Positions 2,834 to 24,983 of a DNA stretch of 26,615 nt are shown one piece after another. The number at the start of each line of letters is the position of its first letter. Position 1 is the stretch's first letter. The translations under genes were made by a program, and so were the position numbers. The stretch lies in IMG/VR virus record IMGVR_UViG_3300043448_000748, positions 1-26,615 of that record; one strand, written 5' to 3'. This stretch comes from a virus. The notes beneath the pieces are model-generated. The model worked only from the letters and a program-made list of their open reading frames with translations, made no database searches and was not told the DNA's origin.

Positions 2834-5245
2834 TTATAATCCTGGTTGTAAAGTAAAGTAATCAGCAGTGTTTGATCTAGAAGTAGTTCCAAATGTAGGC
2901 AGTGTAAATGATGGAGGAGGAGTTTGATTTGGAAGACCCAATATATTATTTACCGATTGCTCAAACTGTTGCTTAGGTGTTTGTCCAATTGGTGGAGTTG
3001 TTTTAGGTGCTGGTTTTATTTGTGCTCCTGGTACAAGCATCTTATAATTACCAGCAGTATTGAATTGATGGTCACCTAATCGTGAAGTATTTACATCTTG
3101 ACTTGCATCATATCCTGCATCAAATCTTCTAAATCCAGTAGCAGCCATAATTTTATTAACTTCTGCTTCAGATTTTCCCAAAGCAAGTAATTGCTGTCTC
3201 ATAAGTTGTGGATTTCTAGCAAGATTTAATGCTTCCAAAGCAGCTGCTCTTTGTTGAGGAGTCAATGCACGATTTAATTTTCCTTGACGTACTGGTTGAT
3301 ATTGCCCTGGTGCATTAATTATATCGCTTATGCTACCACTACTAGCATTGAATTGTCCAGCATTAATGTTACCAGATTGAACTAATCCAGCACGGTTTAA
3401 TACAGATCTGCCCACTGCTGCCATTCCTAGTTTACCTTGACCTCCAGCTTCAGCATTAATTAATCTCAATAAAGTTTCTTCTTCACTTCCAGATACACTA
3501 GGAGATCCTAAAGCACCACCAGAACTACCAGGACCACCAGGACCAGGAGTTCCTGGATTTCCAGGATTGGTGCCAAATGCACCTTGCAATGCTTTCTTTA
3601 ACACATCAATAAAACTATCACCAGATAGTTGAAAGTTAACTCCATTCAATCCAGCAGTATCTGATATGTTTTTAAATATATTATTAATAAAAGATTTAAC
3701 TGGGGGTGGCATAAACATTGCAAATGGATTTACAATGGCATGTGCAAAGGAAAGCATTGCTCCAGCACCAACTTTAATAGGCAATTGTACAGCACCCAAC
3801 AAAGGTTTAATTGCTTTAGATAACCCCTCATTATTTTTAGTTACCTTATTTAAAGGTAAATTTAATGGTTTAAGTGGTTCAGATTTCTTCCTTTCAAATT
3901 TTCTACCCTCTGCAGCAGGTTGTAATTTAACTGGGGGTGGAAGGACAGGTGCTGGTGGTGCTACTCCTGTTGGTGGAGGTAACACAGGTGCTGGTGGCAC
4001 TTCCCCATCAGGTGGAGGAAGAATAGGCGCTGGAGGTGCTTGTCCTTCAATAGGTTGTTCTGGTGGTGCTAATGAAGATTCATCAGGTGTCCCTTCTGGT
4101 TTAGTATCATCTATTACGTTATCACTTTCTGCAGCATCACGATTCTGCATGAATGGACCAAGTAATGACAAGAATAATGGTGCTAATGCTCCAACTAACC
4201 CAGTAATAACACCTTTTTTAACAGATGATTTAAGTGACTTTTGTAATTCACTTTCCTTCTTTTCATCTTTAGTTTTTTCTTTTTCCCCATCTGGAGAAGA
4301 TGGTTTCTCAAGTTGGGATTCTCTTCTCTTTGAAGATAATCTTTGTGTTAAAGTTTTATCAATATTCTTTTTAAATTCAAAACTCTTTTTAGTGATTTGG
4401 TACAGATCAAGTAATGCATTTTTTGCTTCAATAACATTATCCATTACTTCTGCAAGTGGAGATCCAACATGCATATCACTATAACGTGGCTTACTTCTCT
4501 TTACAGTTTTACCTTTAGTTCTTTTTCTCCTATCCCCAGAAGGTTTTGGAAGTGGTTCTGTGCGAACTGCATCAATAAGTTCATCTAATTTAGTTCCAAG
4601 TTGATCAGGTACTTCTGATTCCCAGTCCTCATCTTTCTCTGGAGCAACTGTTTTTCTTGGTGGTTCTTTTGGTCCTTGAATAGGTGGTTCAACTGGTCCT
4701 TGAATTGGATCTGGTCCAATTGGAGTTGGATATTGATTCTCTCCTTCCTTTCTCTGCTGCCTTTCTTCTTCTTGTTTTCTTTTAAACTCTTCAAAATCTT
4801 TCTTTTGCTTTTCAATTAAAGCATCAACAGCATCCATTATTTGATTAGAAGTTTCTTCTAATTTTTGATCAAGATTCTCCATCATATCATCTACAGATTT
4901 ATCCTCTGGTCTGTAGACAGTTGTTTCTCCAGTTACTACTTTTGGTAGTGTAATTTTACTTGAGTTATTATCATCAAGTCCATAAAATTTTCTTAGAGCA
5001 TTTCTAATGTAGATGATACCAGCAGTTTCTCTGCCAGTCATCAAATCACTTTCAATATCATCATAATAATTTGGAAGTCCAGACGGTGCTAACCAAGTTT
5101 CTCTGCCTGCAATAAGACGTTCTGCATTAGCAATCCCCTCATTGGTACGTGGAAAAAGACCATAGGCAATGAGAATACCAACAGCAATTTCCCTATGTGT
5201 TGGGTTTTTAATCTTTTTTACTGCTGATGCTGGATAATCTGCCAT
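2834..5245 (-). CDS. Large virion protein with C-terminal SleB-type cell-wall hydrolase domain
   Basis: 803 residues. N-terminal part: helical, then a charged coiled-coil region (KQKKDFEEFKRKQEEERQQRK) and Pro-rich linkers. Middle: a hydrophobic stretch (GVITGLVGALAPLFLSLLGPF), then three 13-residue PPAPxLPPP repeats and a second hydrophobic segment. A short collagen-like Gly/Pro run (GTNPGNPGTPGPGG) leads into a domain at about 587-735. This resembles SleB-type cell-wall hydrolases: LLRLINAEAGGQGKLGMAAV with the likely catalytic Glu near 599, then SVLNR, and later DHQFNTAGN. It is encoded between the tape-measure-like protein and the gp27-like hub, so it is probably carried in the tail and cuts host peptidoglycan during DNA entry. 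SleB members can be amidases or lytic transglycosylases; the bond cut is not decided by sequence. The start follows an AGGA ribosome site. Confidence 0.75.
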   Translation of the reverse strand: MADYPASAVKKIKNPTHREIAVGILIAYGLFPRTNEGIANAERLIAGRETWLAPSGLPNYYDDIESDLMTGRETAGIIYIRNALRKFYGLDDNNSSKITLPKVVTGETTVYRPEDKSVDDMMENLDQKLEETSNQIMDAVDALIEKQKKDFEEFKRKQEEERQQRKEGENQYPTPIGPDPIQGPVEPPIQGPKEPPRKTVAPEKDEDWESEVPDQLGTKLDELIDAVRTEPLPKPSGDRRKRTKGKTVKRSKPRYSDMHVGSPLAEVMDNVIEAKNALLDLYQITKKSFEFKKNIDKTLTQRLSSKRRESQLEKPSSPDGEKEKTKDEKKESELQKSLKSSVKKGVITGLVGALAPLFLSLLGPFMQNRDAAESDNVIDDTKPEGTPDESSLAPPEQPIEGQAPPAPILPPPDGEVPPAPVLPPPTGVAPPAPVLPPPVKLQPAAEGRKFERKKSEPLKPLNLPLNKVTKNNEGLSKAIKPLLGAVQLPIKVGAGAMLSFAHAIVNPFAMFMPPPVKSFINNIFKNISDTAGLNGVNFQLSGDSFIDVLKKALQGAFGTNPGNPGTPGPGGPGSSGGALGSPSVSGSEEETLLRLINAEAGGQGKLGMAAVGRSVLNRAGLVQSGNINAGQFNASSGSISDIINAPGQYQPVRQGKLNRALTPQQRAAALEALNLARNPQLMRQQLLALGKSEAEVNKIMAATGFRRFDAGYDASQDVNTSRLGDHQFNTAGNYKMLVPGAQIKPAPKTTPPIGQTPKQQFEQSVNNILGLPNQTPPPSFTLPTFGTTSRSNTADYFTLQPGL
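3929..4036 (-). repeat. 39-nt coding repeat, three PPAPxLPPP units
   Basis: In the 803-aa gene, a 13-codon unit occurs about 2.8 times (PPAPILPPPDGEV, PPAPVLPPPTGVA, then a shortened PPAPVLPPPV). It encodes an extended proline-rich spacer between the hydrophobic region and the part leading to the hydrolase domain. Unit number could vary between relatives by slippage or recombination. Confidence 0.85.
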
Positions 5246-19114: not shown

Positions 19115-19201
19115 TTATCCAAGCGTTGCCATATGATATTGGGCTTCTTGGAGTTTTCTTTGCTTTTGAATTTGTTTACGGATAACATTCAACCAATTCA
19201 T
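19115..19201 (-). CDS. Very small basic protein (28 aa)
   Basis: 28 residues: MNWLNVIRKQIQKQRKLQEA followed by QYHMATLG. It is a single amphipathic, basic helix. The start shares ATGA with the stop of the DUF4278-like gene, and an AAGGAGGGG ribosome site lies 7 nt upstream, which is the main support. Function unknown. Confidence 0.6.
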   Translation of the reverse strand: MNWLNVIRKQIQKQRKLQEAQYHMATLG

Positions 19202-19335
19202 TTGTGCCCCTCCTTTACAAACTTAACACCACGATAGGTTTCGTTGTATTGTTGGGGTTGTTGCATCATCTGCTGTTGATATTCTAAACGCTTTTGCGTA
19301 TCATATTCAACACCACGGTATACTACTTTTGACAT
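19198..19335 (-). CDS. Small DUF4278-like protein
   Basis: 45 residues with two copies of the YRGV motif: VVYRGVEYD at the start and TYRGVKFVKEG at the end, joined by a Gln-rich stretch (YQQQMMQQPQQ). Proteins with repeated YRGxxY motifs (DUF4278) are common in cyanobacteria and their phages; function is unknown. A ribosome site AAGGAGAAA lies 5 nt before the ATG. Confidence 0.7.
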   Translation of the reverse strand: MSKVVYRGVEYDTQKRLEYQQQMMQQPQQYNETYRGVKFVKEGHK

Positions 19336-19374
19336 TAGGTTTCTCCTTAGTTGTTTAGGTTAAAGAGCGTTCCT

Positions 19375-19530
19375 TCAGTCAACTTTTGCGTCTAGGAAAC
19401 AACCTTTTTTAGTAACTTGCTTTACTTCCCAAACAATATCATTTTTTTGTTGGGCATCTAATCTTGGATGAGTGACTACTCTTCCAATAATAAAATTTGC
19501 CTGAAGACAAGTTAATAAAATTGCTTCCAT
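19375..19530 (-). CDS. 51-aa protein downstream of a glutamine-riboswitch-like leader
   Basis: 51 residues: MEAILLTCLQANFIIGRVVT, HPRLDAQQKNDIVWEVKQVT, KKGCFLDAKVD. Helical with two Cys; no membrane segment. The family is known to me only as a hypothetical cyanophage peptide. It is the first gene after the element at 19535-19595, which resembles the 'Downstream-peptide' class of glutamine riboswitches, named for the short peptide gene that follows it. If glutamine controls it, the product may act on host nitrogen or glutamine metabolism; this is inference. No Shine-Dalgarno sequence is seen, consistent with control by RNA folding. Confidence 0.75.
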   Translation of the reverse strand: MEAILLTCLQANFIIGRVVTHPRLDAQQKNDIVWEVKQVTKKGCFLDAKVD

Positions 19531-19534
19531 AGAT

Positions 19535-19595
19535 GAACGATCCGTTCCGAGTCGGCTTACTTCCGTTCGCTATTCGCAAATAGCGAATGAACGTT
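19535..19595 (-). promoter_or_regulatory. Glutamine-riboswitch-like element (Downstream-peptide class)
   Basis: On the minus strand the leader has P1 5' strand CGTTC (19589-19593), a 9-bp hairpin TTCGCTATT / AATAGCGAA (19566-19587), the purine-rich core CGGAAGTAAG (19556-19565) and the P1 3' strand GAACG (19543-19547). CGTTCA...GAACGGAAGTA...GGAACG is the hallmark order of glnA/Downstream-peptide RNAs. A second CGTTC (19535-19539) can pair with the same GAACG strand, making a rival hairpin five nt before the ATG. Ligand-stabilised P1 would free the start region. The class call rests on recalled consensus; the switching model is inference. Confidence 0.75.
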
Positions 19596-19601
19596 AGGAT
19601 T

Positions 19602-19630
19602 ATTTTATCATCCTGATCGTATATAGTCAA
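19602..19630 (-). promoter_or_regulatory. Sigma-70-type promoter for the riboswitch-like leader
   Basis: On the minus strand: TTGACT (19625-19630), 17 nt, TAAAAT (19602-19607). Predicted transcript start is about 19595, at the first base of the folded leader. Confidence 0.75.
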
Positions 19631-24763: not shown

Positions 24764-24983
24764 AGAAAGGGGGGCGTCACTCCCCCGTGCTAGGCTCGCC
24801 ACCAATTTTTTGACTGGAAATTGGAAACCAGGCGGAGAAAGAATTTCCCCATCCGCACCACTTGCTCTTAGGAAAAGCAAGAAACCTTATAGGGTCATAT
24901 TGACTCCACCAGTTCTGTTATAGTCCATCCGTGACTGAGGGGGTTCTCCCGACCAGGGTTTTTAACGTCTCTCCATGACGGTG
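24764..24983 (-). other. 220-bp gap with several possible hairpins; candidate structured RNA
   Basis: No convincing gene is seen. On the minus strand there are inverted repeats CTTGCT / AGCAAG, GCGGA / TCCGC with an inner GGGAAA / TTTCTC, CTGG / CCAG, and GGGGG / CCCCC next to tRNA-Gly. The stretch is richer in GC than its surroundings. It may be a long leader of the tRNA-Gly transcript, a terminator region for the 75-aa gene, or a small RNA. Confidence 0.4.

Follow-up and report, generated by a model that had tools for sequence, protein, structure and literature searches.

A probable glutamine-I riboswitch of T4-like cyanophages split around a small protein gene

The DNA analysed here, a virus record of 26.6 kb (referred to as the window), carries an RNA element that is probably a split, or composite, glutamine-I riboswitch of T4-like cyanophages, folded around a small gene. 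Sequence comparison supports an arrangement in which two glutamine-I halves flank the small gene and would pair across it through an outer P1, loop E and P3. As a member of this family the folded RNA would be expected to bind L-glutamine, and by analogy with the host riboswitches glutamine would presumably switch on the DUF4278 gene that follows. All parts of the element lie on the minus strand and are arranged as below.

19602..19630 (-): sigma-70-like promoter, TTGACT-17 nt-TAAAAT, about 8 nt upstream of the aptamer, from a sequence scan
19593-19588 (-): CGTTCA, present as letters
19589..19593 (-): P1 5' strand, CGUUC1, with its partner at 19372-19368
19566..19587 (-): P2-1 hairpin of 9 bp, directly after CGUUCA; in other phages (L013 etc.) its loop is a second small gene
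19565-19556 (-): block CGGAAGTAAG, present as letters
19558..19565 (-): J2/3 and 5' loop-E strand CGGAAGUA (half 1), from the Rfam alignment
19550..19557 (-): P3 5' strand AGCCGACU (half 1), pairing with 19384-19377 and backed by two-sided changes
19548-19543 (-): GGAACG, present as letters
19535..19547 (-): hairpin H, GAACG1-GAT-CGUUC2, a helix internal to the composite fold, from linker length and energy
19539-19535 (-): second CGTTC, preceded by the loop GAT, present as letters
19525..19533 (-): P2-2 5' strand UCUAUGGAA, holding the start codon of the 51-aa gene, with covariation across the gene
19375..19530 (-): nested 51-aa gene, ATG at 19530, in the P2-2 loop
19391..19399 (-): P2-2 3' strand UUUCCUAGA, with one mismatch in the window phage
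19392-19368 (-): half 2, GACGCAAAAGTTGACTGAAGGAACG, at the end of the 51-aa gene and overlapping its stop codon
19377..19390 (-): half 2 junction CGCAAA and P3 3' strand AGUUGACU (19384-19377), coding for the C-terminus DAKVD
19374..19376 (-): 3' loop-E strand GAA, overlapping the stop codon UGA (19377-19375)
19368..19372 (-): P1 3' strand, GAACG2, with compensation to CGUUC1
19343..19348 (-): Shine-Dalgarno sequence AAGGAG of the downstream gene, from the letters
19198..19335 (-): 45-aa DUF4278-like (YRG) gene, Pfam PF14105 E = 0.0017, proposed as the main riboswitch target

The motifs named in the initial annotation (CGTTCA, the 9-bp hairpin, CGGAAGTAAG, GGAACG, the second CGTTC with its GAT loop and the ATG at 19530) were all confirmed as letters, and the promoter that it placed just above the leader was found as TTGACT-17-TAAAAT at 19630-19602. 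A strong terminator after psbA, located by scan, sets the riboswitch unit apart from psbA. The second aptamer half (19392-19368) lies outside the coordinates of that annotation and was missed there. The leader had also been likened to both the glnA and the Downstream-peptide RNAs, with a search by the two Rfam models as the suggested check, and the first likeness holds while the second falls away. The glnA (glutamine-I) model RF01739 matches 19595-19539 (-) with 34.2 bits (E = 7.8e-6, lowered cut-offs, 371 bases searched), which is just under its curated cut-off of 35 bits, and the leader is absent from a whole-window Rfam scan at gathering cut-offs. This match stops short of spanning the 51-aa gene. 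The Downstream-peptide (Glutamine-II) model RF01704 found nothing in the window even at E values as high as 10, and its matches in compact relatives are weak or marginal. Compact relatives with short loops exceed the RF01739 cut-off (38.8, 38.1 and 40.2 bits), and in locus L129 a single RF01739 match (40.2 bits) covers the composite, its P3 being interrupted by a 43-nt insert. Folded as a single sequence, the window leader does no better than shuffles (z = -1.1), so a fold computed from the window by itself is no proof.

The comparison set comprised about 185 related T4-like cyanophage loci. Viral-contig searches by protein and DNA patterns supplied more than 170 distinct loci, and 12 phage records were examined in detail besides. 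Loci selected by pattern are biased towards conserved cores; 41 loci selected by protein are free of that bias. A nucleotide search of phage records located the leader, with a 41-nt core that hardly varies, in phages of Synechococcus and Prochlorococcus. A 34-nt core query matched 44 phage records, and the carriers include P-SSM2, P-SSM4, P-SSM7, P-HM1, P-HM2, S-SSM7, S-PM2, Bellamy, S-SRM01 and S-CREM1. Among the loci selected through the nested protein alone, half 1 is present in 41/41 and half 2 in 40/41, so the block is not due to chance; in the remaining locus, L036, half 2 occurs as an AAACG variant. Some phages, S-PM2 and S-CREM1 among them, have a short hairpin in place of the gene between CGTTCA number 2 and half 2, and this compact, gene-free element, which Bellamy shares with S-PM2, is 85-117 nt in total. 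The contents of the P2 slots in 173 loci were hairpin/gene (91), gene/gene (39), hairpin/hairpin (26), gene/hairpin (13) and undetermined (4). That small genes move between the slots and get replaced by hairpins would agree with a conserved DNA cassette boundary that swaps small genes and has no RNA function. Two-sided compensatory changes in P1, P2 and P3 (see below), the promoter directly upstream and the match to a known riboswitch family make such a boundary barely credible. The split pattern was found in none of the 386 cyanobacterial genomes searched, which gives no support to the idea that the split form came from a host.

Some neighbouring arrangements were also recorded. Locus L185 (6526-7000) has three CGUUCA-P2 units in series, of which the central unit contains a gene and an AGUA of its own, giving a three-part element. 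The L129 contig carries two composite glutamine elements that are separate from each other, and a strong manA RNA (RF01745, 175.6 bits, 1299-1496) lies near them. In the window itself, a wcaG RNA (RF01761, 91.7 bits) lies at 24788-24889 (-) beside a tRNA-Gly gene, and three more tRNA genes are close by.

Glutamine-I aptamers require P1 (CGUUC/GAACG), P2, and loop E (AGUA plus GAA) at the base of P3. In all 173 loci AGUA is confined to half 1, and GAA (148/173) or AAA (25/173) is confined to half 2 as the 3' loop-E strand. When P1 is built from the outermost strands all parts fit, with P1, P2-1, loop E and P3 across the halves and with H and P2-2 inside. The window element has a P1 that closes the junction, a P2 after CGUUCA and a loop E beside P3; in place of the short P3 hairpin, a non-essential feature in a family whose P3 length varies, there is an enlarged cross-gene domain. 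The crystallised glutamine-I RNA reads CGGAAGUAAGG...CCUGAAG, its strands CGGAAGUAAG and CUGAAG match the phage strands, and the 5' loop-E strand of half 1 is also present in it (PMC5393176).

The initial annotation had formed P1 between the first CGTTC and the neighbouring GAACG (19547-19543), and this pairing had to be given up. In L036, CGUUC1 has become CGUUU and GAACG2 has become AAACG, while GAACG1 and CGUUC2 are unaltered. A second search used half 2 with the L036-type changed position and was blind to the first strand. It returned six stretches: the L036 contig, a new compact riboswitch locus (L356) and four without half 1. L356, found through its changed 3' strand, again has CGUUU as its first strand. 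These two-strand changes from C-G to U-A show that the partner of CGUUC1 is GAACG2 at 19372-19368, not 19547-19543. Consequently, the GAACG-GAT-CGUUC hairpin, which exists as annotated, is not a rival structure but one of the helices within the folded aptamer, and its linker is 3-5 nt long in 172/173 loci. P1 is otherwise invariant, its compensation comes from these two independent loci, and scans for other P1 changes yielded no additional riboswitch loci. Comparison of the bases flanking P1 between the composite and the tandem pairing gave mixed results that do not discriminate. A half-2-like string ending ...AAAGCCGACTAAAGAAACG was seen at 3788-3806 (-) of L351, without any half 1.

The same changes bear on a short single aptamer at 19593-19543, whose P1 would compete with GAACG-GAT-CGUUC to open the 51-aa start. 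The letters are present and RF01739 matches them, but this unit is without the GAA strand of loop E, covariation of P1 and P3 contradicts it, CGUUC1 covarying with GAACG2, and the 51-aa start lies inside P2-2; we consider it very improbable. The initial annotation had proposed that ligand-stabilised P1 opens this start. With the start codon inside the P2-2 helix of the split riboswitch, ligand binding should close the region instead.

P3 was scored across the halves. There are 115 standard pairs against 106.5 in shuffles (P = 5e-5, 19 distinct sequence combinations), although most loci have two non-standard C-A positions in this helix. Two-sided changes include A-U to C-G in S-SRM01, U-A to G-C in S-CREM1, U-A to A-U in P-TIM68, S-SSM7 and AG-345-P14, and G-C to A-U in several loci. 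There is also a class that lacks three bases in both halves, pairing AGUC(A/G) with (U/C)GACU (L129, L185, L031, Bellamy, S-B05 and P-TIM40). In an alignment of 46 sequences, where the gene and the outer hairpin loops were swapped for a short spacer to allow pair counts, three P3 pairs of the composite fold have two-sided changes. The whole composite structure scores far above slid controls, which remove the relatedness among sequences that the shuffles retain.

These data separate the split riboswitch from an arrangement of two glutamine-I aptamers in tandem, in which each would have a P1 of its own and a P3 of 2 bp, and the gene would occupy the P2 loop of the second. Tandem glnA RNAs are already known (PMC2864571), RF01739 picks out each single unit in compact relatives with up to 38.8 bits, and the invariant P1 letters suit both folds in most loci. 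However, the local P3 hairpins have zero two-sided changes in the 46-sequence alignment, and on each side five rows disrupt them while keeping the cross-half pairs. Neither unit owns both loop-E strands, and a C-A mismatch would be required in the second P1 of L036 and L356. The composite fold, moreover, lies below the tandem fold in energy in 29/29 sequences tested, by 1.9-7.4 kcal/mol, and is the energy minimum or within about 1 kcal/mol of it. Two tandem aptamers are, as a result, quite improbable. A bistable RNA, in which the tandem and composite folds share the four P1 strands and glutamine or a ribosome shifts the balance, is rather unlikely: GAACG1 and CGUUC2 each have two possible partners and the 3-5 nt linker favours the hairpin, yet conservation marks the composite fold only, and loop E is complete only there.

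The composite fold also draws on the P2 helices, since two-sided compensation backs P1, P3 and both P2 helices. For P2-2 we scored end pairs with 140-200 nt of gene between the ends. Positions 3, 4 and 5 are paired in 66, 59 and 54 of the 66 distinct end pairs, against 52, 30 and 28.5 in shuffles. Examples of the ends are TCTTATG/CATAAGA, TCCTCATG/TTGAGGA and TCCCTATG/TAGGGA. In the window the P2-2 stem consists of 4 bp, a mismatch and 4 bp.

The nested frames begin in P2-2 and finish in half 2 in 133/134 cases, with the stop codon at the border of P3 and loop E. Their dN/dS among relatives is about 0.25-0.27 (median about 0.26), which indicates that they are protein genes. No Shine-Dalgarno sequence precedes the nested gene in any of the 41 protein-selected loci. 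Proteins of both slots have a hydrophobic start, and exactly two cysteines were counted in 136/137 and 54/54 of them; the 51-aa protein of the window also has two. This protein matches the PHROG 504 family (E = 8.8e-6). Nested proteins match PHROG 504 or 6471, neither with an assigned function, and Pfam has no family for them. The predicted structure of the 51-aa protein consists of two helices arranged as a hairpin (mean pLDDT 85), and a PDB fold search with it gave nothing significant. One small two-cysteine protein type occurs in either slot (P2-1 of L051 and P2-2 of L106), its C-terminus, DAKAD or GRK, being dictated by the RNA core. In L013 the gene in P2-1 has its ATG about 10-15 nt from the predicted transcript start, so its message would be nearly leaderless.

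The gene whose Shine-Dalgarno sequence fits the host regulon is the DUF4278 gene further downstream, not the 51-aa gene. Downstream genes start at a median of 33 nt past P1, 159/161 scored relatives have a Shine-Dalgarno sequence there, and 153/159 distinct downstream phage genes encode a YRG (DUF4278) protein. The window copy scores 19.1 bits with PF14105, under the gathering score of 25.3, and homologous phage genes in the same place reach 28, 29.5 and 44.2 bits. Among host glutamine-I aptamers, 41/119 precede a YRG frame. Cyanobacterial glutamine riboswitches are mostly associated with DUF4278 genes, both types activate genes upon glutamine in cyanobacteria, and DUF4278 spans the N-terminal portion of IF17, a factor that inactivates glutamine synthetase (PMC6316151). 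A local anti-SD hairpin over the DUF4278 Shine-Dalgarno sequence showed no excess pairing (0.64 vs 0.62 in shuffles).

From this anatomy, the folded aptamer would hide the start codon of the nested gene within P2-2, and a ribosome that translates the gene and reaches its stop codon would open the 3' half and disrupt P3 and loop E. Translation of the nested gene and the glutamine-bound fold would then be mutually exclusive. We tentatively suggest a reciprocal switch, which is possible though doubtful at present: high glutamine would silence the nested gene and turn on the IF17-like DUF4278 gene, and low glutamine, or an aptamer held by the ribosome, would give the two-cysteine protein.

Group I introns and other RNAs can carry a protein gene in a peripheral loop. 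The phage element resembles them in having a protein gene in the loop of a structured RNA; unlike them it is no intron, and its start and stop codons overlap conserved helices of a ligand-binding domain. With glutamine-I (glnA RNA, RF01739) it has in common P1 CGUUC/GAACG, P2, CGSAAGUA, loop E AGUA/GAA, P3 and the downstream DUF4278 gene. It differs in that its P3 is built from two halves lying far apart, with a hairpin, a P2-like helix and an entire gene enclosed between them, and in that its P2 may hold another gene. With glutamine-II (Downstream-peptide, RF01704) it shares the CGUUCA-P-CGCA strands, a nearby short gene and the picocyanobacterial setting, whereas no downstream pseudoknot was found and its loop E and P3 are of glutamine-I type.

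Glutamine riboswitches in cyanophages are known, being reported in PMC9964418 and PMC9602691, and one in a methylophage has been published (PMC9004378). The glnA RNA annotated in S-CREM1 (PMC9964418) is the compact version of the phage element, with a 99-nt match that spans both halves; it has no gene inside, and the accessible part of that source does not describe the composite fold. No earlier report of folding around a gene was found: a literature search that covered few subscription papers returned no aptamer, for glutamine or for another metabolite, whose halves flank an entire gene.

Ordinarily a riboswitch aptamer is a compact leader that precedes the genes under its control. Here the helices that define the aptamer would span a protein gene that is intact and conserved, and its start and stop codons would lie within the structure, so that translation of the enclosed gene and sensing of the ligand would be directly interdependent. 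The split form occurs in much-studied phages such as P-SSM2, P-SSM4, P-HM1 and S-SSM7. If the reciprocal switch is true, one riboswitch would drive the enclosed and the following genes in opposite directions. The phage DUF4278 protein, related to an inhibitor of glutamine synthetase, is pointed to as a part of how cyanophages handle host nitrogen, and the element could enable the virus to couple its genes to cellular nitrogen status, in viruses of both ocean and freshwater cyanobacteria.
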